From the NCBI GenBank assembly GCA_018304365.1, contig JAGVWH010000005.1, positions 1 through 14,007 on the forward strand: a DNA stretch of 14,007 nucleotides. Reading direction: 5' to 3'. Position numbers and translations under genes: made by a program. Source of the stretch: Nanobdellati archaeon. GTDB taxonomy: Archaea; Nanobdellota; Nanobdellia; UBA10117. How positions within the stretch are numbered: the stretch's first letter is position 1; the number at the start of each line of letters is the position of its first letter. The notes beneath the pieces are model-generated. The model worked only from the letters and a program-made list of their open reading frames with translations, was not told the origin of the DNA and did not search any database. This document shows positions 1 through 13,996 of the stretch, in pieces.

Positions 1-290
1 TAAGCGCCGCATTTTACTGGATCCGCATCATAACTCTTAGGACATTTAGAATATTTATCTGCATTTATAGTTCCGATTTCTATTTCTCGGCATAAACTAG
101 TTCCAGCAATGGGTTTTGTTGTGGTCGGCAATGCAGTTCTTAGCGCCATATTAAAATGGCAAAGCCCATCGCTTAAGCCGCCTCCTGCTGAAGATACTGG
201 AAAAACTATTGTTACTAATATAACTCCACCTATTATTATAGCTAATAAAATTGAAACCAAAACGCTTTGTTCTATTTTACCTCGTTTCAT
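1..290 (-). CDS. Pilin-like protein with class III-type signal, partial (runs off window)
   Basis: Not recognised by name. Ninety-six codons are visible from ATG at 290; the last two bases of the window give a codon beginning TA, so it could be Tyr or the stop. The protein starts M-K-R-G-K-I-E-Q, then a hydrophobic helix at about residues 9-31 (SVLVSILLAIIIGG...), which fits a short K/R-G leader cut by an archaeal prepilin peptidase. The visible head has four cysteines (44, 67, 83, 94) and a Gly-rich hinge after the helix. The ATG overlaps the stop of the preceding gene as ATGA, with GGGAG seven bases upstream, so it is probably translationally coupled. It is the last visible member of the pilin-like train. 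Function beyond being a surface/filament subunit is not readable. Confidence 0.72.
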   Translation of the reverse strand, partial: MKRGKIEQSVLVSILLAIIIGGVILVTIVFPVSSAGGGLSDGLCHFNMALRTALPTTTKPIAGTSLCREIEIGTINADKYSKCPKSYDADPVKCGA

Positions 291-814
291 ATTTGAGCTC
301 CCAGCGCGCTAAAGTACTGCGCATAAACATTGCAAGTAATTTCTTCTCTAAAATATGCTTGTGCATCATATTTGTATTTGTGCATCTCAGAGCTTATTAA
401 AATATCTTTGCCGAAGCCTTCGATTATTATTCCCGTTGCAGATTTATTAATAGCCAACTCATATTCTGGAGCAATGACATCTACGAGTGCGCGAGGAGTT
501 TCATACTCTTTCATTAAGTTATCAAATTGCAATATGATAGCTTGAGAAATATTGCCAACATTAGTAAAACATTGTTCACCCGTTCCAGCTCCGCTGGCAA
601 TTGCTGCTTGAACTGCTACTATTACTGCTGAATCTCTTGCGTATTCTCTAATAGCTTCTGCTTCTTTGTAAGTTTCTAGTAAAGCTGACTGTCTTTCTCC
701 TACAGTTAAAATTATTTCTTGAGCTTCGGAATTTTTCAGGAAAATAGCTGCGAAGCCCATAAGAATTACAAAAACTATTGCTAAATAAACCAGCCACGTT
801 CCGCGTTTATTCAT
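287..814 (-). CDS. Minor pilin-like protein, 175 aa
   Basis: Begins M-N-K-R-G-T-W-L-V-Y, then a hydrophobic stretch to about residue 26, so it looks like a class III signal with cleavage expected after Gly5 and the helix kept as the filament-core segment. Residues 28-72 form a continuous predicted amphipathic helix (GERQSALLETYKEAEAIREY), as expected for a long pilin-type alpha helix leading into a head. The head has two cysteines (82 and 161) that could form one disulfide. Its ATG overlaps the stop of the preceding gene by one base (TGATG) and its own stop overlaps the next start (ATGA). The family is not recognised beyond minor-pilin-like; TadE-like is an alternative. Confidence 0.8.
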   Translation of the reverse strand: MNKRGTWLVYLAIVFVILMGFAAIFLKNSEAQEIILTVGERQSALLETYKEAEAIREYARDSAVIVAVQAAIASGAGTGEQCFTNVGNISQAIILQFDNLMKEYETPRALVDVIAPEYELAINKSATGIIIEGFGKDILISSEMHKYKYDAQAYFREEITCNVYAQYFSALGAQI

Positions 815-1284
815 CAGTACTCAACCCCCAATGTGACTAATAATTTTCCATCCTTTAGGCTTGGAACATACTGCTTACAAGTATCTTTTCCTTCTGCAGT
901 TTGCAATTCACCCATATTGATTAGCGAAGTACTATCTTTGGAGATATGCAAAAACCATTCTTCCCTAGTGGAATCACCGCGTTTATAATCCTCAAAAAAC
1001 GCTTTCGTTTCAGTTGTAAGAATTTGTTTATTAATTGAATTTGATTCTATAAAACTAATTAGCTGTGAAAATCTTATGCCGCTCGAAGTTGCTCCGCGCA
1101 AGTAATTCAATAAATTCTGATCGCAAACTTTCGAACCGGTATCTTCATCCAAAACTAAATTTAAGTTTACTCCGTTGTTTACAAAAGAACTTGCAACTAA
1201 AACAAAAAGAAAAATTACACTTAAGATAATAAATGCAACTAAAAATGCTACCATATCTTCTATTACGCCGCGTTTATTATTCAT
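814..1284 (-). CDS. Minor pilin-like protein, 156 aa
   Basis: Starts M-N-N-K-R-G-V-I-E-D with an uninterrupted hydrophobic helix at about 10-34, then an ectodomain. The N-K-R-G leader is shared with neighbours and fits archaeal prepilin processing. Two cysteines (54 in SKVCDQNLLNYLRG, and 136) could pair. The C-terminus KDGKLLVTLGVEY resembles the end of the 1346-1876 product (DGRLLVEVAFYR), suggesting a related last strand. GAGGT lies eight bases before the ATG. A 22-codon reading frame fills the gap to the preceding gene, so translation may be coupled through it. Specific function unknown; a filament or anchor subunit is inferred from leader and context. Confidence 0.8.
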   Translation of the reverse strand: MNNKRGVIEDMVAFLVAFIILSVIFLFVLVASSFVNNGVNLNLVLDEDTGSKVCDQNLLNYLRGATSSGIRFSQLISFIESNSINKQILTTETKAFFEDYKRGDSTREEWFLHISKDSTSLINMGELQTAEGKDTCKQYVPSLKDGKLLVTLGVEY

Positions 1285-1349
1285 CTTGCGAACCTCTGTG
1301 AAGCGAGATTAGCAAAATTTACCTTATCTGTTATTGAATTTTGGTTCAT
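1281..1349 (-). CDS. Possible 22-aa mini-ORF joining two pilin-like genes
   Basis: Hand translation gives M-N-Q-N-S-I-T-D-K-V-N-F-A-N-L-A-S-Q-R-F-A-R then TGA. Its ATG overlaps the stop of the 1346-1876 gene (ATGA) and its TGA overlaps the ATG of the 814-1284 gene (ATGA), so it exactly fills the only gap between those genes. There is no clear ribosome binding site and no hydrophobic segment. It may carry ribosomes across the gap, be a remnant of a longer leader, or be chance, since an open frame this short is not rare in AT-rich DNA. Confidence 0.3.
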   Translation of the reverse strand: MNQNSITDKVNFANLASQRFAR

Positions 1350-1876
1350 CTGTAAAATGCTACCTCAACTAATAATCTACCGTCTGTAAAACTTTGGTCT
1401 TGCTGTCTGATTTTTACAAAATAATAATCACTGATTAAATCATCTGGCGTCCTAGTGTAAGAAAATCTCCCCACTCTCTTAGTGCCAAAACCTTCTTGAC
1501 TTTCAATCAACAACGCGCCGTCATTTCTAATTAATTCATAATTTACTTCTATTTTACTGGCTCTAAGGCAACCAGACATAATTCCGCGTATTAAATTTGG
1601 ATCGAAAATTCCGACATTATTTCCCTTGGTTAAATCTATTGTTCCTGCGTGCACTAAATATTTTTGCACTCCATCTTTATCTATATACTTTTCTTCCCAC
1701 GCTAAACAATTAGGCGAATTAAATATGCGTTCTGCTATAATTTGCGCTTCCAATTCTTCTGATAATAAATCTGGATAATCTGCCTGAGGTTTAGCTACCT
1801 CGAACAGCATAAATAAACCGACACCCAGTAATATAACTGCAAAAATTGTTGAAATTAACGCTTGTGGCCACTCCAT
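1346..1876 (-). CDS. Pilin-like membrane-anchored protein without K/R-G leader, 176 aa
   Basis: Begins M-E-W-P-Q-A-L-I-S-T and passes straight into a hydrophobic helix at about 6-26. Unlike its neighbours it has no K/R-G site, so it may stay uncleaved as a membrane anchor or be a minor subunit. The ectodomain follows an acidic linker (DLLSEELEAQIIAERIFNSP). It has two cysteines (57 in SPNCLAW, and 103), and its C-terminus DGRLLVEVAFYR matches the end of the 814-1284 protein. GGAG lies seven bases before the ATG, which overlaps the preceding stop as TAATG. I know of no named family; the context makes it a component of the pilus-like complex. Confidence 0.75.
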   Translation of the reverse strand: MEWPQALISTIFAVILLGVGLFMLFEVAKPQADYPDLLSEELEAQIIAERIFNSPNCLAWEEKYIDKDGVQKYLVHAGTIDLTKGNNVGIFDPNLIRGIMSGCLRASKIEVNYELIRNDGALLIESQEGFGTKRVGRFSYTRTPDDLISDYYFVKIRQQDQSFTDGRLLVEVAFYR

Positions 1877-2298
1877 TAATTCACTCCTCGAAATGTGCTT
1901 TTTCTAGTTGTTTCATCGTATTCTTTTACCAATGTTACTTTTTGATGTATAGCTATATCTTTGAAATTAATGTTCTCCTCTGACATATATATCAAATTAA
2001 AACACGCTGAATCTCTAGTAAGTGATATGGCTACTTCAGAAGGGGCGACTGCACAAGTTTGCTTTCGAGTAATACTTCCTGTACCACCAATAAACTTTTC
2101 TTTATGTATTATATCTTGCTGGGCCGTTTCCGGAGCCGCAAGTAAAGTTTCGACTGTTAATTTTTGATCAAATGCTACATATTCAGGCAATGTTTTAAAC
2201 AACGGCAAAAAAACTTGCACGCCAAATACGATAAATATTACTGCTATTACTATCATACCAATAACTAAAATTGGCCTTATTACGCCGCTCTTATTCAT
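1876..2298 (-). CDS. Minor pilin-like protein, 140 aa
   Basis: I chose the ATG at 2298, giving M-N-K-S-G-V-I-R-P, rather than a TTG two codons upstream, because it restores the M-N-K-x-G leader seen in neighbours. A hydrophobic helix runs from about 9 to 32. The short ectodomain has two cysteines (82 and 99) and ends in a basic/polar tail (TTRKSTFRGVN). The cleavage site is weaker than in neighbours because Ser replaces Lys/Arg before Gly, so processing is less certain. The first codons ATGAATAA also contain the stop of the upstream propeller gene (8-nt overlap). Role inferred as a minor subunit; no specific activity is visible. Confidence 0.76.
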   Translation of the reverse strand: MNKSGVIRPILVIGMIVIAVIFIVFGVQVFLPLFKTLPEYVAFDQKLTVETLLAAPETAQQDIIHKEKFIGGTGSITRKQTCAVAPSEVAISLTRDSACFNLIYMSEENINFKDIAIHQKVTLVKEYDETTRKSTFRGVN

Positions 2299-3541
2299 TT
2301 TCAAGCACCGCTATACCGCTATTTATTTGGTAATCAAAATCAGGATCTGCGCACCATTTTTGTGCGCTAGATTCTCCGACTATATGATTGCTTGCGCTTT
2401 TTGCCAATGCAATATCATAAGCGCAAACGTGATCGCCTAATGCGAAATACAAAAGTCCATTATCTATTGCTGGCGTAGATTTAGCATCAGTAGCATCCCA
2501 TTTATCAGAAGCTGAAACAAAGAAGCCAGATGCTAATTCATTTTTCTCGCTACACCGTATAGCATCATTATCACCAGAACCAAAACAAATTACTTCATCG
2601 TTAGCTGCAAAATCTGTATTTATGCTACTCGATACTATCCCAAAATCAACTAACTCTAGAAGTTCATCTTGCGAGATGTTCCATTTATACAATTTATTTC
2701 CTAATGCAAAATAAATTAAATCTCCTTCTAAATGCGGTTTTGATCCTGCAAAACCTTGCGCCTTAGTAAGCGAATTAAATATCGGATCCCCAGCCGTAGC
2801 ATTAAAGCAAGCCACTAAATTATTATTACCGGCTCCGAAGCACATTAAATCATTTTTAAGTTCTATATTAGATGTATCGAAACTAAATCCAATACAACGT
2901 CCCCAAACGCTCGCAGTTTCATCCAACGGACCTGAACTAAATTTATCATACTTGCAAACTTTATGTCCTAAACCGACATAAATATAGTCTTCAGTTACTA
3001 TTGGTTTGACTAAAGTAGTGCATGCATGACTTAAGCATTTTTCCTTAGCCTTAATTGTTAATATCTGCGATCCATCTCTTTGATTTAAACAAGTGTATTC
3101 ATTTCTATCAGTTCCAAAGCAAACTAAACCAAAGTTCGCTTCTATATCTGTAGTTATCGAACCGCTTGCTTCATAGCAATTATTCCAAATTGCGCCTGTT
3201 GGATTATAAGCGCATACATGATTTCCAATCGCGAAATAAAGTCCTTCTTTTGTTAATTTTGGTGTAGAATCAGCTCCACCTTTTTTCCACTTTTTTGCTT
3301 TTTCAAATGTGAAAAGTGGCTCTCCTGTTAATTTTTCCAAGCAATGAATAGAATTATCTTTTCCACCGCCAAAACAAATGACATTATTCGTATCTGTAAC
3401 CGAACCGCTAACTTTTGGAAATTCATCTAAAAAGCCTCCAATTAAATTTGCTGCAAATGTGAAAAATACTACTGCAATTATAATTCCTATAATAGCATAA
3501 ACAAGTATACTAGCTCCTCGCTTGCTGTTAAGTGCGGCCAT
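2291..3541 (-). CDS. Pilin-leader protein with eight-bladed PQQ-like beta-propeller head, 416 aa
   Basis: Residues 1-9 (MAALNSKRG) plus a hydrophobic helix at about 11-34 form a class III-like signal and anchor. The rest is an internal repeat of about 85-93 residues occurring four times, starting near 54, 139, 232 and 317. Each unit contains two blade-like motifs. The first is [VL]-x-C-F-G followed about ten residues later by a second Cys. The second is [LI]-Y-[FV]-x-[LI]-G-x-[HK]-[VL]-x-[AK]-[YW] at 101-112, 187-198, 276-287 and 364-375, often preceded by S-T-P-x-[LI]. These match the general look of PQQ-like/quinoprotein blades, so I infer eight blades. Sixteen cysteines fall into neighbouring pairs (56/67, 110/122, 141/151, 169/174, 196/216, 234/245, 319/330, 373/397). 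No catalytic residues are evident, so it is probably a binding or structural head; ligand unknown. GGAG lies eleven bases before the ATG. Confidence 0.82.
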   Translation of the reverse strand: MAALNSKRGASILVYAIIGIIIAVVFFTFAANLIGGFLDEFPKVSGSVTDTNNVICFGGGKDNSIHCLEKLTGEPLFTFEKAKKWKKGGADSTPKLTKEGLYFAIGNHVCAYNPTGAIWNNCYEASGSITTDIEANFGLVCFGTDRNEYTCLNQRDGSQILTIKAKEKCLSHACTTLVKPIVTEDYIYVGLGHKVCKYDKFSSGPLDETASVWGRCIGFSFDTSNIELKNDLMCFGAGNNNLVACFNATAGDPIFNSLTKAQGFAGSKPHLEGDLIYFALGNKLYKWNISQDELLELVDFGIVSSSINTDFAANDEVICFGSGDNDAIRCSEKNELASGFFVSASDKWDATDAKSTPAIDNGLLYFALGDHVCAYDIALAKSASNHIVGESSAQKWCADPDFDYQINSGIAVLENE

Positions 3542-3847: not shown

Positions 3848-4588
3848 TTATTGTCCTGGCTGAGTTCCTTCAGTTTCTCCTGAGTCAGCCTCTGGAGTTT
3901 CTCTAAGTTGATAAACTCTTACTAAGACTTCTCCATCATTATCAGAACATTTCTTATCTAAATACCATCCGCAAACAAATGCCACGCCTTCGCCTTCAAA
4001 GTAATACATCGTATCAGGTGGTAGCCAGGTTGACTGATATGTATTTTCTTTTTTATCTATATCTGTAGTAAGTAATGCTGGGGTTGTAAGTATGCTATAA
4101 CCTGTCTTTGTTCTTACATCCAACATTACTATTTTATCAGTAGTAGCCCGTGCTCTCTTTTTATCATATATTATTGCTCCATTATTATATTCTATTTGAT
4201 ACTTTGCACCTTCTTTTGTACTTACACACGCTTTACTCACGGCTGCTCCAGGCATAGAAATGGTTTCATAATTTTTGGCGCAATTTGTTACACCATTAAC
4301 AATTAACTCTTGGAAATCTACCACATTATTTGTACAAATATTATTGGCGCAAGCAAGATTGCTTGATGAACAATCACCACTATCGATACAAGATTCACCT
4401 TCTAACGAAGAACCTTGTTCTGCTTGCACTTGGCCAGGAGCACTAATTACCCCAAATAAATCTGTTATTTTATTTCCGCCGGTGGTCGCTGAACCGCTTA
4501 ACATAATTATTGCAAGAACTAAAACTACTACCGCAATAATTCCGAATACAATTATAGTCCAAACAGGAGTATCTCCGCGATTATTCAT
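3848..4588 (-). CDS. Cysteine-rich pilin-like protein, 246 aa
   Basis: The ATG at 4588 gives M-N-N-R-G-D-T-P-V-W and the family-like leader; an upstream TTG at 4618 would add ten residues inside the previous gene and is less likely. A hydrophobic helix spans about 9-31, then a Gly/Ser linker. A compact Cys cluster at 67-85 (C-x5-C-x6-C-x4-C) precedes a larger domain with Cys 103, 121, 206 and 214, making eight in total. The C-terminus is an acidic, Gly/Pro/Thr-rich tail (residues 230-246). Directly after the TAA stop the same frame stays open for 16 codons of similar low-complexity composition before a second TAA at 3797-3799, so a recent nonsense change or readthrough is possible. It starts two bases after the preceding gene's stop. 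Probable large filament or adhesin-like subunit; binding target unknown. Confidence 0.82.
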   Translation of the reverse strand: MNNRGDTPVWTIIVFGIIAVVVLVLAIIMLSGSATTGGNKITDLFGVISAPGQVQAEQGSSLEGESCIDSGDCSSSNLACANNICTNNVVDFQELIVNGVTNCAKNYETISMPGAAVSKACVSTKEGAKYQIEYNNGAIIYDKKRARATTDKIVMLDVRTKTGYSILTTPALLTTDIDKKENTYQSTWLPPDTMYYFEGEGVAFVCGWYLDKKCSDNDGEVLVRVYQLRETPEADSGETEGTQPGQ

Positions 4589-4590
4589 TA

Positions 4591-4965
4591 TTATCTTTGA
4601 GTAATAAATGGTGGACAACTTGTTTCGTCAACTTCGCCTTCTTCGACTGTAGTGGAACAAGTCATACCTAAATCTTTACATGAATCAGCTGTGCCATCTC
4701 CATTTTTATCTAATAATTCCTCCTTACAAAATCTTGATGCTTCCCATTCGGCTGTTGTATCAACACCTTGGGCCTGCAGACACCACTGGCTGCATTTAGT
4801 CTGGGCTGCAACTATGTCTGCTTCTGTTGCTTGTGCAATAGTTTTTGTCTGTCCAAATAAATTCTCAAATGCGCCTGTTGCAAATAATACTATGAATACT
4901 AAAACTAAAAGTGCTAAAATTGCTAAAATAATTGTATTTAGCGGAAGACCTTGACCTCGTCTCAT
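4591..4965 (-). CDS. Pilin-like protein B with calcium-loop-like motif, 124 aa
   Basis: Starts at ATG 4965, which overlaps the previous stop as TAATG; a TTG two codons upstream is less likely. M-R-R-G-Q-G-L-P-L-N leads into a hydrophobic helix at about 10-30. The sequence parallels the upstream gene 4965-5432: both share R/K-G-Q-G-L-P-L, then C-x3-C (58/62 here), then F/Y-C-K-[DE], then a Ca-binding-loop-like stretch, then C-S-T-T near the end. The loop D86-x-N88-x-D90-G91-x-x-D94 resembles EF-hand, dockerin or thrombospondin type 3 loops. Six cysteines suggest three disulfides. This is a tandem paralog of the likely major pilin, shortened by loss of a segment carrying two cysteines. Calcium binding is inferred from the motif only. 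Confidence 0.83.
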   Translation of the reverse strand: MRRGQGLPLNTIILAILALLVLVFIVLFATGAFENLFGQTKTIAQATEADIVAAQTKCSQWCLQAQGVDTTAEWEASRFCKEELLDKNGDGTADSCKDLGMTCSTTVEEGEVDETSCPPFITQR

Positions 4966-5432
4966 TAGCAAGTAGCCTCAGATGCGGGGTCTCCTCCGAT
5001 TGTTGTTGAACAGCTTACATCTATATCGCTGTTGTAACAAGTCAAGTCAACTTCCATCTGTCCGACTTTATTGTAAGTACCGCCAGTGCAAATTTCATCT
5101 TCTAATGGGTTTCCAGGAGAGCCTGATGAAATATCGCAGCCTCCAAGATCTCCGTCTTTATCCAAATCTATATCGAATGTGTCTTTACAATATGAGCTTG
5201 AGCTCCAGGCAGACGTAGTAGTTGCTAATTTAGCCTGTGAACAAAGTGAATTACACGAATTGCGCGCTGTAGCTAAATCATCACCTATTGCAGAAGTTCC
5301 GCCTTTGAAAATCTTTTGGAAGAAGACACTTCCTCCGCCTATTGTAAATGCGATTATTAAAACTAAAACTATTGCAGCAATTGCCGCAAGAACGATTAAT
5401 TCAAGCGGTAATCCTTGTCCCTTTTTGGCCAT
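4965..5432 (-). CDS. Pilin-like protein A with calcium-loop-like motif, probable main pilin, 155 aa
   Basis: M-A-K-K-G-Q-G-L-P-L-E is followed by a hydrophobic helix at about 11-32, a typical archaeal prepilin layout with cleavage expected after Gly5. The head contains eight cysteines (60, 64, 82, 99, 115, 132, 141, 155), the last being the final residue. An acidic loop D89-x-D91-x-D93-G94-D95 resembles calcium-binding loops. It is a tandem paralog of the next gene. It is the first gene after a good TATA-like element at 5455-5462, whose spacing (about 27 bases) would put transcription start at the ATG, so it is probably leaderless and separately expressed from the motor genes. Position and promoter make it the best candidate for a major subunit, which is inference. 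Confidence 0.85.
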   Translation of the reverse strand: MAKKGQGLPLELIVLAAIAAIVLVLIIAFTIGGGSVFFQKIFKGGTSAIGDDLATARNSCNSLCSQAKLATTTSAWSSSSYCKDTFDIDLDKDGDLGGCDISSGSPGNPLEDEICTGGTYNKVGQMEVDLTCYNSDIDVSCSTTIGGDPASEATC

Positions 5433-5960: not shown

Positions 5961-6071
5961 TTATCCCCCCAAAATATTAGTAATAAAAAATATTACAAGC
6001 GCTATCATTGTGATAACTGCAACTATTTGTATTACATATTTGACAAGTTCCCCCGTTTCAAATTCTGCCAT
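5961..6071 (-). CDS. Very small single-helix membrane protein, 36 aa
   Basis: Found by hand translation. M-A-E-F-E-T-G-E-L-V-K-Y precedes a hydrophobic helix at about 12-34 (VIQIVAVITMIALVIFFITN), and the protein ends I-L-G-G. Its ATG overlaps the stop of the platform-protein gene as TAATG, and its TAA abuts the ATG of the next small gene, so it sits inside a tightly coupled series. The acidic N-terminus lacks a K/R-G leader, so it is not an obvious pilin. It could be a small partner of the platform protein; that is position-based inference only. Confidence 0.68.
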   Translation of the reverse strand: MAEFETGELVKYVIQIVAVITMIALVIFFITNILGG

Positions 6072-8137
6072 TAGCTGACTATCATTGTTATTGGTGATGC
6101 AAGCTGATTGAATAAAAATATTGTTACGCTTGCAACTATAACGTAAATTATTGTTCCGAGTATTAAATTTATTCCCTTTTCCAAATTCTCTTCGATTGTA
6201 TCTTTACCATATGTTATTCCCGATAGTAATACTGAAAGTATAAAGCCTATTTGCAAAACATATATTCCAACAATTAATTGAAACGCAAAAGGAGACATCA
6301 TATCTTGTATTTGAAATATATCCACCAAACCAGTGCCTATCGCTGCATCGCCTGCTGTTCCCGCTTCCAAGCCGCCGAGCTGCTGTCCGAGACTTCTTAA
6401 AATACTAATTGTCAAAACTGCCAAACCGACAACAATTCCTGATATAACCGGAACGAAAATTTTAACTTGCATTTGCATAGAAGACGTTGTTTCGGCAAGC
6501 AAATCCTGCATTCTTTCCGAAACTCTATGAACCGCCCGCAAATACTGCGAAATTGTAATTAAGCTATTTCCAGCTATTTCTGGACTTCTTTTCGAACCTT
6601 CAACAACAACTTGCATTGTACTTGTAATAATAGTCGAAGGATAATCATTAATCGCGCCATACCGCGGATTGAAAATTGCATCCCGCAAATTTGTCCCCAA
6701 ATTCCTAATGTTATTTACAACTTTTTTATAAAAATTAGCGACTTCTGATTTTTCTGATTCTGCAATTTTTTCGAAAGCTATTTCGACAGGGATATGTTCT
6801 TCCAGTCTCTCTCCAAGCTGGAAAGCTGAATCCATAAATGTAGTTTCGATTTCTGAAATTCTTTTCTTTGCTTTTGCCATTTGGGAAACAGAAAGATAAT
6901 AATAAATTCCGAATCCAAGACCGATAGCACCAATCAAATCTATGCCAGCATAAACTGCTATTTGGGAGAAAAGCTCATCTGATAGATTTGCTGAAAATAC
7001 AGCTAGTGTATAAAAATAATACAGAGCCGGACTCGCAATAGCTAAAAAAGTAATAAGTCCGAAAGCTTCTGCCGGAATTGGAATTTTTTTATCGAATATT
7101 ACAACGCTTGGTTCGCCATACCTTTGCCGTAAATATTGATATACATCTGTTGTTTTGGCTCCTGCAGGTCTCGTTGCAAGAACTTCTGTTCCTATGAAAT
7201 AAACAATAATTGGCAAAAGAACATTGTATAGCAGCAATATATAATACCATTTTATTGATGCGCCCATAAATGCGGCGGCCATAGGGAGTATAACTAAACC
7301 CATAACTGGCAAGACCACACCAAGCATATGCAAACTTTCCAATGGGCTTTTCAGCATATGCGCATAATTAAGAAGTCTATCTTGTGTTCCTTCCAAAATT
7401 ACTTGCAGAGCTTGATCTAAAATTTCTTTTTTCCTGCGCGGACTGCCTTCGTATAATGAACTTTCGATTAATCTTAATGAATCAACAAACTGCGGATCCC
7501 AATCTTTCCACGTTAAAGCATAATCATTCATAGCTTCTGTAATAGAAGTATATGTTTTTGTTTCGACATCCCAAAGAAGTTTCATAAAATCGATTGACAG
7601 AGGCGGAGAAATATGTTTGGCAACAAATGCAACTGCCCGTTCCAAATTAGGAGTATACTGCATATAAATTGTCAAATATAAAACTGCTAATACTAATTCG
7701 TCAGACGCTTGTGAGCGCCACACTACGAGTATTCGCTTAGGTAGTTTCGGCAAATAGAATAGTAATGCTACTGACGTTATTAAGCCAACTAACAAAATCA
7801 AATAATTTACAAATAATATAGATGCTATAATTGTAAGAACGGCTACAATAATAGTTGTCAAATATGCAAATGAAAAAACGCTGTTTGGATTTATTTCTAA
7901 GTGAGCTAATTTAAGATGCTTAGAAACTTCCAGCAAATCTTTTTGTGCCGGAGTAACTGGCAGAATTTTATCTGCTACTCTGCATGCTGTCTCATAAAAC
8001 GTATGTGACTGCGGCAACTGATCCCGCCTGAAATCAAGATATTCTTTAGAATATGAGCGGCTAAAATCAGCTTCTCCAGATAATTCGCCTGCTATTTTCC
8101 GTTTATATTTATCTATTATATCCTGCTCAGCCGCCAT
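6071..8137 (-). CDS. FlaJ/TadC-type pilus assembly platform protein, 688 aa
   Basis: Inner-membrane platform that is expected to couple the ATPase to subunit extraction or insertion in type IV pilus/archaellum systems. I chose ATG 8137, two bases after the ATPase stop; an upstream GTG at 8188 would lie in the ATPase gene. About nine hydrophobic segments are visible (roughly 87-106, 110-130, 268-292, 297-318, 356-381, 392-415, 558-580, 617-640 and 655-677). They separate two large cytoplasmic helical regions at about 131-265 and 416-555, i.e. two T2SSF-like domains in one chain, as in archaeal FlaJ/TadC proteins. Length is near the upper end for the family. Motifs include Y-x-L-T-W-K-D-W-D in domain 1 and P-x-x-I-x-x-S-T-M-Q-V-V-V-E-G in domain 2. 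It sits directly after its cognate ATPase. Family call is strong; archaellum versus pilus is not decided. Confidence 0.92.
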   Translation of the reverse strand: MAAEQDIIDKYKRKIAGELSGEADFSRSYSKEYLDFRRDQLPQSHTFYETACRVADKILPVTPAQKDLLEVSKHLKLAHLEINPNSVFSFAYLTTIIVAVLTIIASILFVNYLILLVGLITSVALLFYLPKLPKRILVVWRSQASDELVLAVLYLTIYMQYTPNLERAVAFVAKHISPPLSIDFMKLLWDVETKTYTSITEAMNDYALTWKDWDPQFVDSLRLIESSLYEGSPRRKKEILDQALQVILEGTQDRLLNYAHMLKSPLESLHMLGVVLPVMGLVILPMAAAFMGASIKWYYILLLYNVLLPIIVYFIGTEVLATRPAGAKTTDVYQYLRQRYGEPSVVIFDKKIPIPAEAFGLITFLAIASPALYYFYTLAVFSANLSDELFSQIAVYAGIDLIGAIGLGFGIYYYLSVSQMAKAKKRISEIETTFMDSAFQLGERLEEHIPVEIAFEKIAESEKSEVANFYKKVVNNIRNLGTNLRDAIFNPRYGAINDYPSTIITSTMQVVVEGSKRSPEIAGNSLITISQYLRAVHRVSERMQDLLAETTSSMQMQVKIFVPVISGIVVGLAVLTISILRSLGQQLGGLEAGTAGDAAIGTGLVDIFQIQDMMSPFAFQLIVGIYVLQIGFILSVLLSGITYGKDTIEENLEKGINLILGTIIYVIVASVTIFLFNQLASPITMIVS

Positions 8138-8139
8138 TT

Positions 8140-10395
8140 TTAATCTTCGATATCCTCTTTGAACTGCTGTTTGAACCAATGCTCCCACTCAGCATAAACT
8201 CTTTTTGCATCTGTAGTGCCAACATCTTTTGCAACAATATCTGAAATTCTATGGAATGCTTCATTCGATTTTATTACGAAAGGCGCTTCCAGTATTTCGG
8301 AATTCTTTGTTTCATTTGCATAATCGACTATTTTTTGTTTTATTTTTGCTCTTACTTCAATATTTTCCCAAATACCATCCCAATTTCCCGACCATTCCTT
8401 AACTCTGCTTCCGATTGCTTTTATTACTTCTGACTCGCCTTCTTTCAAAGCCGCTGTAGGCTCAAGCATATCTGTTTTTGCGTTATAAGTCAGCAAATCT
8501 TTGAATCCTTTTTCTGCTAATGGATCATTTGTCCACGTTTTTCCAACCTCGGTTATTTGTACAACTCTCTTGACGTGTTCAAGTCCCGAAGGAGTTGTAA
8601 TTGGATTCGTAACTAAAATTACATCTGTTGCTTTGAAAGACGTTTTAGGAACACCCAAATCATTAACAACTCTATCGTAAACACCATAAGGGGAATCGCC
8701 GTGTATAGTTCCTGCTACAACTTTTGCTAAAGCTCCGACTCTCATAGCTTCGTAAAGCGCTTTTGCTTCAGTAGATCTTACTTCGCCGATAATTAATGCT
8801 GAATCGCCAAGGCGTAAAGCTGTTCTAATTGCATCCTCAGCGGGCACTTCTGATTTTCCGCCGGCAATTGCAGAACGTACTTTCATTGATTGGACATCAT
8901 ATCCTAATTTTCTTAGACCCGCAACATTTAATTCCAAAGTATCTTCAATTGTTACAACTCTACTCGAGCGCGCGATTTCCAACAAAAGTGCATCGAGCAT
9001 ACTTGTTTTTCCAGAGCTTCTTGAGCCGGCAATCAAAACAGTTCTGGCGCCGTCCATTAAAAACGATATTAATCCGGCTGCGAGGCTTGTAATCATTCCA
9101 TTTTGAATAAATAAAGGTAGAGTCCAAGTTCTATCTCTGTGTCTTCTAAATGCAAATGAATAGCCTTTGGGAGAAAGAGGCGGCTGCATTGCTGAAACTC
9201 TTGCGCGTCCGTGCGGAACATATAACTCTGTATCAAGAACTGGATTTGCCTGATCTAATGGTCTGCCAGACATCAGTCTTAATTTCGTTGCCCAGCTTTC
9301 TGCTTCCTTATTCAAAGGCGTTGCATTAGTAGTGCACTCGCCGTACTGCGAATGTATAACTGAAATTGGATTTATTCCTACTGGCGCATTTACAACTATA
9401 TCTTGGATATTTTCATCTGACAAAATAAGTTCAATCATTCCAAAACCTATCGTATAGCGAATCAATATTTTTGCCAGCTCTTCTACCTCTGCGGGTTCTA
9501 ACTTTATATTTCGGTTTTTTGCCAAATCGCGAATCAAATCTTTTTCTATATTTATGAAAGTCTCTCTCGTCCTTTCTATATTTGTGAATTCTTTTCTCTC
9601 TGGTCTATGCTCTGCTAAAACAGCTCTGGCATCTGTAAGAAGCGCATATTTATCCTCTGTAAGTCTAAATTCTGGCGGCGTTAAATGGTAGATAGGCCGA
9701 ATATCAGTTTTAGTTTTGAGAATCAAAACTTGAGTATCATCTGCAATTTTATAATTGTCTATTTCCTCCGCTCCAGCGGGATAAGACGTAACTAATTTAG
9801 TATACATAAAATTTGGCCGTATAGAAGGCTTGAATATTTGCTTGTAAAATGTTCTATCTCCAGATTTGTAGCCGTCTAAATGCGGCGCTGCTATCTTCAA
9901 AAGTTTAGTCTGTCCAAGAATTACGAGTACTTTTTCCAAAACAACTGAAAATTGTTTTGCGCAAGAAACGTGCTCTGTAATTACGGAGTTTACTTCTTCT
10001 CTGTGCCTTCTTAGAATTCTTACATAGCTGCCAACAGGGTCTTGCTTAATACCTTGCAAAACTGCTGACTGGAGGAAATTAAACCATTCTGGGAAAAATC
10101 TTCTGCAGTCCTCTCCGAATCCTGAAAAATCTAAAACTCGTTCTTCTGCTATTAATTTCTGATTAACTTCGGCTATTTCGTAAAGCAAATTTGCCTGAGA
10201 TTTTTCATAGACATATTCTTCATTTTGCGAGAAAATTATCTCTTCAACTTGACCGCTTTCAGCTAAAGCCCCTATAGTCTGTGCCATTACGAAAGGATCG
10301 TCTTCTATAGATGGATTATAGATACTGTTTTCGAAGTTAAATTTCAGAACTTTACCTTCAGCTGTTCTGATTATTTCGTATCCCTCTCTTGGCAT
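8140..10395 (-). CDS. FlaI/TadA/VirB11-type secretion ATPase, 751 aa
   Basis: Hexameric ATPase expected to power subunit assembly at the cytoplasmic face of the platform protein. Walker A is G-S-R-S-S-G-K-T at 457-464. An Asp box V-V-T-I-E-D-T-L-E-L spans 480-489. Walker B is G-E-V-R-S-T-E-A at 537-544, preceded by D-S-A-L-I-I, and the His box is A-G-T-I-H-G-D-S at 561-568. The region 300-425 (I-G-F-G-M-I-E, D-E-N-I-Q-D-I-V-V-N, P-H-G-R-A-R-V-S-A) matches the N-terminal ATPase subdomain of the archaeal family. About 280 residues precede the conserved part, and roughly 120 residues beyond the core (from about 630) have no recognised motif, so the protein is longer than typical archaellum FlaI. 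No Shine-Dalgarno precedes the ATG, and a TATA-like box lies about 24 bases upstream, so it is probably leaderless. Confidence 0.95.
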   Translation of the reverse strand: MPREGYEIIRTAEGKVLKFNFENSIYNPSIEDDPFVMAQTIGALAESGQVEEIIFSQNEEYVYEKSQANLLYEIAEVNQKLIAEERVLDFSGFGEDCRRFFPEWFNFLQSAVLQGIKQDPVGSYVRILRRHREEVNSVITEHVSCAKQFSVVLEKVLVILGQTKLLKIAAPHLDGYKSGDRTFYKQIFKPSIRPNFMYTKLVTSYPAGAEEIDNYKIADDTQVLILKTKTDIRPIYHLTPPEFRLTEDKYALLTDARAVLAEHRPERKEFTNIERTRETFINIEKDLIRDLAKNRNIKLEPAEVEELAKILIRYTIGFGMIELILSDENIQDIVVNAPVGINPISVIHSQYGECTTNATPLNKEAESWATKLRLMSGRPLDQANPVLDTELYVPHGRARVSAMQPPLSPKGYSFAFRRHRDRTWTLPLFIQNGMITSLAAGLISFLMDGARTVLIAGSRSSGKTSMLDALLLEIARSSRVVTIEDTLELNVAGLRKLGYDVQSMKVRSAIAGGKSEVPAEDAIRTALRLGDSALIIGEVRSTEAKALYEAMRVGALAKVVAGTIHGDSPYGVYDRVVNDLGVPKTSFKATDVILVTNPITTPSGLEHVKRVVQITEVGKTWTNDPLAEKGFKDLLTYNAKTDMLEPTAALKEGESEVIKAIGSRVKEWSGNWDGIWENIEVRAKIKQKIVDYANETKNSEILEAPFVIKSNEAFHRISDIVAKDVGTTDAKRVYAEWEHWFKQQFKEDIED

Positions 10396-10411
10396 AGCGT
10401 AATTCTTGCTT

Positions 10412-10425
10412 AGTAAAATATATAA
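10412..10425. promoter_or_regulatory. Palindromic TATA element shared by divergent genes
   Basis: AAAATATATAA in the 55-base gap between two divergent starts reads as a TATA box on both strands. Its centre (about 10419) is about 24 bases from the ATPase ATG at 10395 and about 31 from the plus-strand ATG at 10451. Both fit leaderless or very short-leader transcripts, and neither start has a Shine-Dalgarno motif. One element may therefore serve both directions, which would link expression of the motor and coiled-coil genes. Confidence 0.5.
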
Positions 10426-10450
10426 CTACCGCTGTGCTTTTCCTGTTAAT

Positions 10451-10903
10451 ATGGACGACCAAAATTTACCGCCTTTGCCAGATTTGCCTGCGCCATCGAA
10501 TTTTGCGGGTGGGATTCCAAAAGCTACGGCTGAAGGCTTAGTGAGAGTGCGGGAGAACGTTTCTTCTTTTACAGCGAGAGTTAGATTAGTAGAGGATCAA
10601 TTAAACAATATCAGGAGCCATTTAGAGTTAATCGACTCTTCTATGATTGATAAGCACAAAACAATTGTAAAAGAATTGCGAAGTCTTGAGGACAGCGGAA
10701 GAGAATTGAGAGCTGAAATGGCAAAGTTAAATGATTTGATTGAGCGCACCATTAAGCGGCTTGAAAGCCTTTCTTCCAAAGAAGAAGTAAAAGTTCTAGA
10801 GCGTTATATTGAAATGTGGCAGCCGATGAATTATGTTACTCGAGACGAATTGAAATCGTTAGTACAAAAGATTATTAAGGAACATTCGAAAAAAGGTGAA
10901 TAA
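10451..10903 (+). CDS. Coiled-coil cytoplasmic protein, possible ArlC/D/E-like accessory, 150 aa
   Basis: I prefer ATG 10451 over 10406 because the TATA-like box at about 10415-10425 would start transcription at about 10447-10451, and the 15 extra residues have no supporting signal. The N-terminus is Pro-rich (L-P-P-L-P-D-L-P-A-P), then a long heptad-like helix runs from about 38 to 108. A distinct C-terminal motif follows at about 110-142 (V-L-E-R-Y-I-E-M-W-Q-P-M-N-Y-V-T-R-D-E-L). It is soluble, with no signal or membrane helix. Divergence from the motor ATPase and coupling to a second coiled-coil gene recall the archaellum accessory proteins ArlC/D/E, but that homology is inferred from layout, not shown. 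Confidence 0.8.
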   Translation: MDDQNLPPLPDLPAPSNFAGGIPKATAEGLVRVRENVSSFTARVRLVEDQLNNIRSHLELIDSSMIDKHKTIVKELRSLEDSGRELRAEMAKLNDLIERTIKRLESLSSKEEVKVLERYIEMWQPMNYVTRDELKSLVQKIIKEHSKKGE

Positions 10904-11454
10904 TGGTTTTACACAAACTTATCGGTAGAAAAGAAAGATTTCCAACTCCAGAATCATTAAGAGCGCAGGGAGTCAAATCTGAAATATTAACTAATGATTT
11001 AAGCGGAAATCCAGTCCAACAAACTCCGATACCAGAAGCACCATCGCCGCATATCGATTTCTTAAAACGTATGGAAGATGCGCAGGAAATAGAACTGCCA
11101 GAACCACGGATTCGTACTCATCATCCGCATCACTCAACCGAAGAATTGCAAAGAATAATTGAGCAGGTTTTAAGCGATAAATTGCACGAATTTACTAAAG
11201 AACTTGATTCTGTAAGAAAAGTCAGGGATGACGTAAGATATCTAAGCAAGCAAATGGATGATAGATTTGAAAAGTTAAATCAGCATTTGGAAAACTTGCA
11301 AATAACTTTTGAGGAAAAAGTTGACGATCATCAGCAAACTGTAGAAGAGTTAAGCATAGAGTTGAAAGCTCTCAAAAAAGTTTTTGACTCTCTTATGCCT
11401 ACGTTTACAGATAATATCAGGCAAATGAGAGATATCATCGAGAACAAACGATAA
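10903..11454 (+). CDS. Second coiled-coil protein, 183 aa
   Basis: The ATG overlaps the stop of the preceding gene (TAATG) and AAAAGGTGA lies about five bases upstream, so the two are made together. The first 35 residues are basic/polar. Residues about 35-75 form a Pro-rich linker containing P-I-P-E-A-P-S-P and a His cluster H-H-P-H-H, and about 78-182 is one long charged coiled coil (E-E-L-Q-R-I-I-E-Q-V-L onward). There is no membrane segment, signal or enzymatic motif. It probably forms a rod or adaptor complex with its neighbour at the cytoplasmic face of the ATPase. That is inference; ArlC/D/E-like is the closest known analogy. Confidence 0.8.
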   Translation: MVLHKLIGRKERFPTPESLRAQGVKSEILTNDLSGNPVQQTPIPEAPSPHIDFLKRMEDAQEIELPEPRIRTHHPHHSTEELQRIIEQVLSDKLHEFTKELDSVRKVRDDVRYLSKQMDDRFEKLNQHLENLQITFEEKVDDHQQTVEELSIELKALKKVFDSLMPTFTDNIRQMRDIIENKR

Positions 11455-11597: not shown

Positions 11598-12194
11598 TTA
11601 CTCACCTCGAGCTGGTTCTCTTGTTATGTAATACGTTGCTACTCCGAATATAATAACCAAGACTATCAAAGATAATATGGACGGCGAGAAAAATACTCTT
11701 GTCTGCTCTTCTCCCAAAAACGCCTGCAAACCTTCTACGCCCTCTGAAGATGGCTGAGTAATATTAAATTGGTCTCCTAATTCCGGTCGATTTGCGAGTG
11801 CTCCTTCTGGAAATACTTGTGAGAAAGCTATCAATGCAAACAGAATTATAATTATAATAATCGGACTATAAACTCTGGATTGACTTAAGGCGCTTGAAAT
11901 TGAGCTTTCTTGAACGCCCACGAATCTGAATATCAAAATAATGAATAAAATTATAAGTATTAGAACTGAAATTAATGGTAAAAAGGCTGTTAAGAATTTC
12001 ACTGCTCCGAGAGAAGATACGAATAGAAATGCCAGTACGAGCGATACCGCTGCGTGGACAAATTTGTTGTCTCCCAATACTTTTGTTTTGTCGAGAAGTG
12101 CGTAAGATAAAGCAAATATAAGTAAGAAGGGCAGTACTACAGAATACACACCTATGTTTTGCAATATACCTACAGCATCGAGTAAAGTTGGCAT
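11598..12194 (-). CDS. Polytopic membrane protein, 'VLPFLLI' paralog 2, 198 aa
   Basis: About five hydrophobic segments are visible (roughly 17-34, 47-64, 68-92, 109-127 and 170-190), so it is an integral membrane protein. Residues 14-41 (I-G-V-Y-S-V-V-L-P-F-L-L-I-F-A-L, then D-K-T-K-V-L-G-D) closely match residues 32-60 of the upstream gene product, so the two are paralogs with a shared first helix and K-T-K-V-L-G-D loop. A Ser/Glu/Gly-rich loop at about 135-165 separates the last helix. The C-terminus T-R-E-P-A-R-G-E is polar. It starts 12 bases after the preceding stop without an obvious ribosome binding site. I do not recognise a named family; proximity to motor genes suggests a membrane component of the same machine. 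Confidence 0.8.
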   Translation of the reverse strand: MPTLLDAVGILQNIGVYSVVLPFLLIFALSYALLDKTKVLGDNKFVHAAVSLVLAFLFVSSLGAVKFLTAFLPLISVLILIILFIILIFRFVGVQESSISSALSQSRVYSPIIIIIILFALIAFSQVFPEGALANRPELGDQFNITQPSSEGVEGLQAFLGEEQTRVFFSPSILSLIVLVIIFGVATYYITREPARGE

Positions 12195-12206
12195 AAAGAA
12201 AAGTGT

Positions 12207-12755
12207 TTAGTTGGCAATATAAATGTTGAGAGCTTCTTCTGGTATTGCAAATGCAATTTGACCGGATAAGAGTGCCGATAGACTGTAAAGTGCGGGAACT
12301 CTATCTCCGACTGCAAATCCAACTATTCCCAAGAAAATCAACAGAATGAATACAGATATAACGACAAGATGCGGCCCTCTGAGCGTTTTAACTTTCTCTT
12401 CCCAATCTGGAATTATAAATGCAAGTGTCATAATAACAAGCAAAGCTGCAACTAAAAGAAAACTTGCCTGCGGTAATAGAATTGCAATCGCTTCTACAAC
12501 TGGCGTATATGTGATAACCAAAAAGCCGGCTACGGTTGCAATTACTCCAGCGATGTTTTTAGTTTGCTGACTATCGTCGCCTAAAACTTTAGTCTTTAGT
12601 AAAATAGCATAGAAAATTGCCCAGATTAATAAGAACGGTAATACTACTTTAAAGAATCCAAATTGCTGAAGCAGTCCGAGAGCATTATCAAGCGGCGCAA
12701 TATTTAGAGCGCTAGCAGGTTCTTCGAAACCAGTCTGAAGTGAAAATGCAACCAT
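12207..12755 (-). CDS. Polytopic membrane protein, 'VLPFLLI' paralog 1, 182 aa
   Basis: Has an N-terminal polar segment of about 30 residues, then hydrophobic helices at about 36-53, 70-88, 92-114 and 128-148, with a further weaker one near 155-171. The core V-V-L-P-F-L-L-I-W-A-I-F-Y-A-I-L-L-K-T-K of helix 1 and the following V-L-G-D-D match the downstream paralog. A charged loop D-W-E-E-K-V-K-T-L-R-G at about 117-127 is probably cytoplasmic. A TATA-like box about 25 bases before the ATG and lack of a Shine-Dalgarno sequence suggest a leaderless transcript that also covers the next gene. Function unknown; a scaffold or channel-like subunit is possible. Confidence 0.8.
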   Translation of the reverse strand: MVAFSLQTGFEEPASALNIAPLDNALGLLQQFGFFKVVLPFLLIWAIFYAILLKTKVLGDDSQQTKNIAGVIATVAGFLVITYTPVVEAIAILLPQASFLLVAALLVIMTLAFIIPDWEEKVKTLRGPHLVVISVFILLIFLGIVGFAVGDRVPALYSLSALLSGQIAFAIPEEALNIYIAN

Positions 12756-12776
12756 ATGTAATTCTAATTAAGTTAG

Positions 12777-12788
12777 TATAAATAATTA
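12777..12788 (-). promoter_or_regulatory. TATA-like promoter of the VLPFLLI pair
   Basis: Minus strand TTATTTATACT contains TATTTATA centred about 25 bases before the ATG at 12755. The spacing predicts transcription starting at or beside the start codon, as for the pilin promoter, whose TATTTATA core is identical. Confidence 0.5.
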
Positions 12789-12794
12789 ACGTCT

Positions 12795-12826
12795 GCGCCA
12801 ACAGATGGTGTACTGCCCTGTGGCGC
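12795..12826. other. GC-rich hairpin in the gap 12756-12841
   Basis: GCGCCA (12795-12800) pairs with TGGCGC (12821-12826). Past a bulged A, CAG (12802-12804) pairs with CTG (12818-12820), and GG (12807-12808) pairs with CC (12816-12817), leaving a seven-base loop. This gives about eleven pairs, nine of them G-C or C-G. It stands out from AT-rich flanks and lies between the stop at 12842 and the promoter of the next gene. There is no T-run directly after it on either strand, so it could be a processing, stability or protein-binding element rather than a simple terminator. Confidence 0.5.
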
Positions 12827-12841
12827 GATGAATGCTTACTT

Positions 12842-13996
12842 TCAGCGGCGTCTTTTCCTTGGTTTTGCTTTGGCTCTTGATTTAGCTCTAACTCTTGCTC
12901 TTGTTTTAGTCTTTCTCGGGCGCGTTCTTGCAGTCGCTGCTCCTCTGCCTCTCGAGCTTGCAGACGCTCTTCTACTAAGATTATTCTCCATACTTGCTAT
13001 TTCAGAAAGGTATATTTCAACTTTATGTTCTAATCCTTTTATATTTGCATCCAAAAGTGGTGTAGCTCTATCGGGATTTTGCCTTTTTATTGAATTTCGT
13101 TTATTTATAGCAGATACAATATTTTCTTCTAATTTTATAACGTATTCTTCTATTTGTTCGGCTCTACTCGCATATTTCGCTGCAGTGCTGTCTCCTTTTT
13201 TGGATAACTTTATTGCTTTTTTCCTCAAATTTTTAACATCTTTTGCCAAAGCTTTAATTGATGCTTTTACTTGTTTGACTTCTGCTCCGGCAAATCTGAA
13301 TATCTTTCTGCCTCGGGCTCTTTCTTCGCCAGCTTCTTCTCTTTCGGCTCCCTTAATGTCTTTCCAAGCCGATTTTAGAGTGCCTCTTGCGCTATATATC
13401 CCTAAAAATATAGTTATTATTAAGAAAATTACTCCGATACCAATTATCACAGATGCTATTGTTCCCACTTCCGGCGGAAATTGTATTCCTGATTCCGTTA
13501 TTTCAGTACCAAATAACAATATTAAACTTCCAAGAAGTATTATTCCCACACTAATAATAAACAATCCAGAAACTGCTCCGAATTTATGTTCTTCATCTGC
13601 GACTAAACCATATAATAATCGTATGGATAATATAACTGCGATAATCAAAAATGCTAACAGCATAAAAAAGAAATATGCGAATGGCATAAACCTAATAACT
13701 AATAATGTTATTAGAATAGCTAAACCAGCTTCTGCGGAACTGCTTGTAAATGTATCTTCAAATACGCTGCTTTTTTTCAAAGCAGTATATATGATCATAA
13801 AAACAAATATACTTGATATGACTAAAAGATAAAACATAGAAATTGTATCTACTCGTTTACCAAGTACTAATGTTACTACATCAAAAAATGGAACTAAATA
13901 TGGCGTTAATTGATCTGATATTTCATCTGCACGCACTACTCCAAAAATGCTAAACAAGAAAGGGAATATTGTTGCGACTGCTCTCCTCAAGACCAT
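12842..13996 (-). CDS. Multi-pass membrane protein with coiled coil and very basic tail, 384 aa
   Basis: The start is fixed by an in-frame TAA two codons upstream of ATG 13996. Residues 5-23 look like a signal peptide or first helix (A-T-I-F-P-F-L-F-S-I-F-G-V-V-R-A-D). Further hydrophobic segments lie at about 53-71, 90-130 (one long or two short helices), 141-163 and 178-202. The rest is soluble: an acidic/basic stretch, a helical coiled-coil-like region at about 238-342 (R-K-K-A-I-K-L-S-K-K-G), and a tail from 349 to 384 with 19 Arg/Lys among 36 residues and no acidic residue. That tail should bind nucleic acid or anionic membrane if cytoplasmic. No family is recognised; it may anchor the system to the nucleoid, ribosome or membrane, which is speculation. 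Confidence 0.82.
   Translation of the reverse strand: MVLRRAVATIFPFLFSIFGVVRADEISDQLTPYLVPFFDVVTLVLGKRVDTISMFYLLVISSIFVFMIIYTALKKSSVFEDTFTSSSAEAGLAILITLLVIRFMPFAYFFFMLLAFLIIAVILSIRLLYGLVADEEHKFGAVSGLFIISVGIILLGSLILLFGTEITESGIQFPPEVGTIASVIIGIGVIFLIITIFLGIYSARGTLKSAWKDIKGAEREEAGEERARGRKIFRFAGAEVKQVKASIKALAKDVKNLRKKAIKLSKKGDSTAAKYASRAEQIEEYVIKLEENIVSAINKRNSIKRQNPDRATPLLDANIKGLEHKVEIYLSEIASMENNLSRRASASSRGRGAATARTRPRKTKTRARVRAKSRAKAKPRKRRR

Follow-up and report, generated by a model that had tools for sequence, protein, structure and literature searches.

Bacterial modular pilins are widespread, and the available sections of PMC8179133 describe >1,200 such proteins in 264 architectures. In Streptococcus sanguinis PilB, a functional module is carried on a pilin with a class III leader; PilB keeps its pilin module, to which a vWA domain is added by a short loop, and the bulky module was modelled as compatible only with the tip, tip exposure being deduced from its bulk (PMC8179133). 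In the same sections, four conserved minor pilins are proposed to form a complex that carries the propeller adhesin PilC/PilY1 at the pilus tip. PilY1 is bacterial and is not itself a pilin, and its IPR008707 propeller has a conserved calcium site (available sections of PMC4471445). Tad-like pili carry interchangeable, variable tips, and in the Tad-like Kil pili of Myxococcus these are minor-pilin tips with variable domains (available sections of PMC12075869); the Kil tips are bacterial, and the word 'propeller' is absent from the main text of that paper. The nearest functional precedent for the protein analysed here is PilX2 of the episymbiont N. lyticus TM7x (Saccharibacteria), a minor pilin whose propeller has seven RCC1 blades and which is needed for normal host binding: its deletion lowered host binding from ∼10.6% to 4.6% (available sections of PMC12206443).

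For archaea, DUF2341 proteins have been placed at pilus tips by analogy with PilY, large signal-peptide proteins may be minor pilins or adhesins, and some components have conserved cysteines (available sections of the census PMC4858521); 'propeller' and 'PQQ' are absent from the main text of that census. Secreted DPANN surface proteins in which propellers are fused to CARDB are described, not as pilins, in the available sections of PMC5498576, and a giant nanohaloarchaeal protein with propellers in those of PMC10266531. The accessible sections of PMC9563170, PMC7203096, PMC12448462 and PMC11178815 contain no propeller pilin, and a term search of the accessible text of PMC6668835 returned none. 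In the literature searched, within which subscription journals are thinly covered, a propeller pilin from archaea or DPANN was not found.

The window (the whole 14,007-nucleotide stretch of DNA analysed) derives from a 52%-complete genome of a tiny, probably host-dependent archaeon, its host dependence resting on DPANN affiliation. It encodes a protein in which a pilin-type N-terminus is joined to a propeller, as follows:

3541..2291, minus strand: propeller pilin, 416 aa, ATG start; leader 1-9, helix 5-38, propeller 43-416
3515..3541, minus strand: class III-like leader M-A-A-L-N-S-K-R-G, residues 1-9, read from the sequence, with a predicted cut after Gly9
3428..3529, minus strand: N-terminal helix, residues 5-38, from the AF2 model
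2294..3415, minus strand: eight-bladed propeller, residues 43-416, from AF2 strands and Cys alignment

The plus strand across this ORF contains 22 stops. A homologue search at E 0.01 among 5.8 billion proteins returned nine proteins, among them P0001, which shares 99% identity with the window protein. Searching with a profile added P0010 (738 aa) and P0011 (886 aa), which are the proteins of loci L018 and L019, and one doubtful match; P0009 was not recovered by the profile search among the candidates scored. Two alignments were used, A1 with 9 sequences (72 pair cells) and A2 with 11 sequences (88 pair cells).

The initial annotation had proposed a pilin-type S-K-R-G leader followed by a hydrophobic helix, and the protein does begin with MAALNSKRG and an uncharged hydrophobic stretch. 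Class III signal peptides are short hydrophilic leaders that end in Gly, not invariably so in archaea, and are followed in class III pilins by ∼21 hydrophobic residues, with Glu5 often absent in archaea (available sections of PMC4471445); the leader and uncharged stretch of the propeller pilin agree with this description. Near the N-terminus, 10 of the 11 A2 sequences have K/R followed by G/A (P0009 has Q-A), and the hydrophobic helix is conserved (mean entropy 1.41 bits over residues 5-38 in A2). In the AF2 model only four residues separate the end of the helix (residue 38) from the first propeller strand (residue 43), and no separate pilin head or pilin module is predicted between them. Judged from its sequence and model, the protein would count as a modular pilin, in that a class III-leader pilin is fused to a domain that is not pilus-specific.

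The remainder of the protein had been annotated as four repeats that form an eight-bladed propeller, with structure prediction and an HHpred-type search named as the check. The C-F-G motif recurs at positions 56, 141, 234 and 319 (spacings 85, 93 and 85) and V-C-[AK]-Y at 109, 195 and 372 (repeats 1, 2 and 4); repeat 3 has L-Y-K-W at 284 and lacks the partner Cys there. In pairwise BLOSUM62 local alignments the four repeat units scored 78-134, and no shuffle out of 500 scored higher than 41; repetition of this strength lies far outside what chance would give. AF2 returned a propeller fold whose strands form eight groups of four (grouping and blade and strand letters were assigned manually), and the Foldseek matches of the model were propellers, both of which bear out the annotated fold. 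The top match was BamB, and strong matches included the designed propellers Bagel8, Scone-E/R, Cake8 and Tako8, the last described as eight-bladed. These proteins have the same fold as the propeller head; to our knowledge, neither BamB nor the designed propellers carry a pilin leader or regular Cys pairs.

The propeller had further been called PQQ-like, and here the fold and sequence similarity stand, but no PQQ chemistry is indicated. The Pfam scan of the propeller pilin lists PQQ_2 only (PF13360, 27.8 bits, E 2.4e-6), just above the gathering cut-off of 27.6. Among its relatives, the L017 protein scored 34.7 bits and those of L021 (25.1) and L020 (21.5) fell below the cut-off, and no match was listed at E 0.01 for the L018 and L019 homologues. 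PQQ-dependent dehydrogenases are marked by a vicinal Cys-Cys and a catalytic Asp/Ca site. The propeller pilin sequence contains no adjacent Cys-Cys, and Cys, Gly, Pro and hydrophobic or aromatic residues make up most of the best-conserved family positions, along with a few Asp, Gln and Lys. No quinoprotein model scored above its cut-off with this protein, TIGR04528 being far below.

Sixteen Cys (56, 67, 110, 122, 141, 151, 169, 174, 196, 216, 234, 245, 319, 330, 373 and 397) fall, as annotated, into eight neighbouring pairs (56/67, 110/122, 141/151, 169/174, 196/216, 234/245, 319/330 and 373/397). Repeats 1-4 hold 2, 3, 1 and 2 pairs, respectively, repeat 2 having three because of the extra pair 169/174. 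In the AF2 model, blades 1, 3, 5 and 7 each have one Cys of a pair on strand B and the other on strand C; in blades 2, 4 and 8 one member is on strand C and its partner in the region of strand D, and 169/174 is the extra pair. For the four B-C hairpin pairs (56/67, 141/151, 234/245 and 319/330) the residue-number sum equals the hairpin register sum exactly; the two Cys of each should therefore face each other in the model.

If the pairs are disulfides, their members should be lost together, and this pattern was observed. No half-present pair was found among the 72 cells of A1, and 8 pairs were lost whole. With a tolerance of ±2 or 3 alignment columns, A2 gave 0 half-present pairs in 88 cells and 13 lost whole; at ±0 or 1 columns, 4 of the 88 were half-present, at 169/174 (one) and 196/216 (three). 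Random pairings of the same columns equalled the observed result in 8 of 20000 trials with A1 and 1 of 20000 with A2, these being related and not independent sequences. Only four pairs vary (169/174, 196/216, 319/330 and 373/397); 56/67, 110/122, 141/151 and 234/245 are invariant, and the pair-loss test is silent on them. At 169/174, neighbouring Cys can also vanish together when a loop shrinks. P0007 has 13 Cys, one extra and unpaired, and the L018, L019 and L020 proteins have 26, 26 and 20, respectively. The latter three have a Cys at the position of the window's repeat-3 L-Y-K-W, with W-C downstream in the alignment (by eye), and therefore the window protein lost, or never gained, a whole pair. 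At the level of aligned sequences, whole-pair loss supports disulfides and does not prove them.

PilX2 is bacterial, bears its seven RCC1 blades as an added C-terminal domain and has no predicted PilD signal peptide, according to the available sections of PMC12206443. In contrast, the propeller pilin is archaeal, has eight PQQ/BamB-like blades directly after the helix and eight Cys pairs, and carries a recognisable leader. It also differs from PilB in that no separate head is predicted besides the propeller. The modular or propeller pilin is thus a kind already known; what appears to be new is its archaeal version with eight blades, paired Cys and a propeller for a head.

The propeller gene lies within a pilus locus. 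PLF, EWPQ, CSQ, KRGT and GDGL are labels coined in the present analysis for pilin-like genes:

3..290, minus strand: minor pilin 'GDGL', cut by the window end
287..814, minus strand: minor pilin 'KRGT', from the homologue search
814..1284, minus strand: minor pilin 'CSQ', from the homologue search
1346..1876, minus strand: minor pilin 'EWPQ', from the homologue search
1876..2304, minus strand: minor pilin 'PLF', from the homologue search; if the listed TTG is its start, it shares 14 nt with the propeller ORF
3848..4618, minus strand: pilin-like protein with Cys residues, 256 aa, encoded upstream of the propeller gene
4591..5432, minus strand: two putative major pilins, small and Cys-rich, in which Q-G-L-P-L follows the leader
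6071..8188, minus strand: large multi-TM protein, 705 aa, taken for a TadC/FlaJ-like platform
8140..10395, minus strand: traffic ATPase, 751 aa (PF00437, E 8.1e-17)

The small proteins encoded in series here each have a basic-Gly leader and a hydrophobic helix. The traffic ATPase scored 128 bits with the archaellum ATPase model (cut-off 550) and 134.8 with the TadA family (cut-off 373.15), and no FlaF/G/H model was among the matches to the window proteins scanned. The 705-aa protein matched no family above the cut-off; its position and a strong relative upstream of the L019 pilin genes suggest that it is the platform. A prepilin peptidase (PF01478, E 9.9e-13) is encoded elsewhere in the same genome (G000:C9:8475-8813). 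The AF2 model of the CSQ pilin has an N-terminal helix, further helices and then a four-stranded sheet; it gave no significant PDB match, and a classical minor-pilin fold is not demonstrated for it. Beyond the pilus operon, two ORFs at 10406-11454 (plus strand) diverge from it, with weak coiled-coil family matches and no confident family. Three consecutive multi-TM proteins, one with a very basic C-terminal tail, are encoded at 11598-13996 (minus strand), again with no confident family; ORFs similar to this trio (by eye) adjoin a 771-aa ORF in L063.

Downstream of the propeller, phmmer found PLF-EWPQ-CSQ-KRGT in this order in the window and in L017, L018, L019, L020 and L021, the weakest match of the set being PLF in L018 (E 1.5e-4). 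In L021, GDGL lies between the propeller and PLF, which are not neighbours there. In genome G004 the propeller is split over two contigs, and in L064 the same four genes follow immediately after its C-terminal part. The order of propeller and four pilins is therefore common to 7/7 propeller genomes read, with direct propeller-PLF adjacency in 6/7. GDGL relatives occur nearby in L017, L018, L019, L021 and L022; among L017-L022, a relative of the 256-aa protein was found in L021 only. Two relatives come from 'DPANN group archaeon' assemblies (RIFCSPLOWO2_12_FULL_36_25 and NC_groundwater_1190), and a CSQ relative is named 'Nanoarchaeota archaeon' in its source. Upstream of the propeller gene, L018:1519-4290 and L019:3282-5969 (both plus strand) encode proteins with a pilin leader, one of 923 aa (50 Cys) and the other of 895 aa (48 Cys), respectively. 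The propeller homologues of these loci (L018:7098-9314 and L019:8954-11614) have long C-terminal extensions, and that of L019 has a sub-cut-off match (E 4e-4) to CARDB, the domain joined to propellers in the DPANN surface proteins of PMC5498576.

At E 1e-6, the propeller profile matched 10 of 280 genomes of the class, namely 7 family members and 3 weak partial matches. The family members (G000, G002-G006 and G017) belong to one order, six in one family and one in another. CSQ matched 13 of the 280 genomes (E 1e-4) and KRGT 35 (E 1e-5). We then read 14 propeller-less loci of the class, L059-L063 (chosen by CSQ matches) and L070-L078 (nine KRGT-match genomes), with labels given at E 0.01. EWPQ-CSQ-KRGT occurred in order in eight of them (L059, L060, L061, L070, L071, L073, L075 and L078), preceded by PLF in four (L059, L060, L070 and L078). 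A partial set was found in L062, L063, L072, L074, L076 and L077, with CSQ and GDGL matches alone in L062 and L063. Hydrophobic helices can inflate E-values and the loci were chosen by matches, and gene order is the stronger evidence. Propeller-profile matches in the 14 loci were weak, the best (E 0.0023) being to two small L060 proteins. Some members are oversized: KRGT reaches 856 aa (L076) and 672 aa (L071), and PLF 673 aa (L060). A Pfam scan of ten L059-L063 proteins found nine without a domain and one with a phage lysozyme domain. Near pilin-like genes, the 684-aa product of L062:14197-16251 (minus strand) matches the phage tail lysozyme family PF18013 (E 1.2e-26) and has, by eye, a hydrophobic segment at its N-terminus.

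Thus (i) the pilin set, found also in propeller-less loci, is wider than the propeller; and (ii) the propeller appears to have been added in two families of one order, loss elsewhere being possible.

We consider it probable that the propeller pilin belongs to a DPANN type IV filament as a modular minor pilin whose usual head is replaced by a disulfide-stapled propeller, which would serve as a tip adhesin or receptor. The observations behind this reading are the sequence features, the predicted fold, the whole-pair Cys loss, the gene order and the ATPase and peptidase genes; cleavage, oxidation, co-assembly, tip position and ligand binding we infer. The leader would hold the N-terminus inside the cell while the helix spans the membrane. 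The exported propeller would then be oxidised, facing Cys within a blade locking adjacent strands. VKOR was found in 1/7 family genomes and Thioredoxin_4 above the cut-off in 4/7, neither of them in the incomplete genome of the window. After a prepilin peptidase cut behind Gly9, the helix could pack with those of PLF, EWPQ, CSQ and KRGT into a filament-initiating cap. A head of this bulk would favour the tip, as a lineage-specific adhesin or receptor, perhaps for the host cell. The suggestion of a tip receptor is strengthened by the ATPase, the presumed platform, the peptidase gene and the conserved minor-pilin cluster downstream.

If the helix were only an anchor (or were cut late), the protein would be a membrane-bound propeller receptor or scaffold, bindosome- or BamB-like, that never enters a filament. 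The top Foldseek match fits such a role, as does the archaeal bindosome, whose binding proteins carry class III leaders and for which a filament has yet to be seen (available sections of PMC4471445). The gene order shared with four pilin genes by every propeller genome read and the K/R-G/A leader of nearly all A2 rows argue against it, and we regard an anchored receptor as unlikely. BamB, moreover, functions in Gram-negative outer membranes, which also weakens the parallel.

Were the protein instead an abundant shaft pilin that decorates the filament with propellers, the conservation of its hydrophobic helix would fit, and a body position is possible if the linker is flexible (available sections of PMC8179133). 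However, the spacing to the first strand is only four residues, the bulky head would hinder packing, the gene adjoins the minor-pilin set, and smaller QGLPL-type pilins lie elsewhere in the locus; a body subunit is distinctly improbable. Least credible, and in our judgement very improbable, is a secreted or anchored quinoprotein-like enzyme placed among pilin genes by chance, given the TIGR04528 score, the missing Cys-Cys, the types of conserved residues and the conserved pilin gene order.

The propeller head is probably a grip displayed on the pilus towards the surroundings of the cell. For the question of how DPANN archaea find and attach to hosts, residues 43-416, encoded at a conserved position of the pilus locus, would offer a direct handle, open to production, structure determination and ligand screening with no need for a culture, and the Cys-pair signature, if the reading is true, would be a way to find more such propeller heads. 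We raise, tentatively and as possible more than expected, a class-wide four-pilin cap (PLF-EWPQ-CSQ-KRGT) that different lineages would furnish with outsize domains of their own, on which the propeller head would here be the tip host receptor, an independent counterpart of the propeller pilin of Saccharibacteria. If this is true, a propeller on a minor pilus subunit would have arisen separately in small-genome bacteria and archaea.
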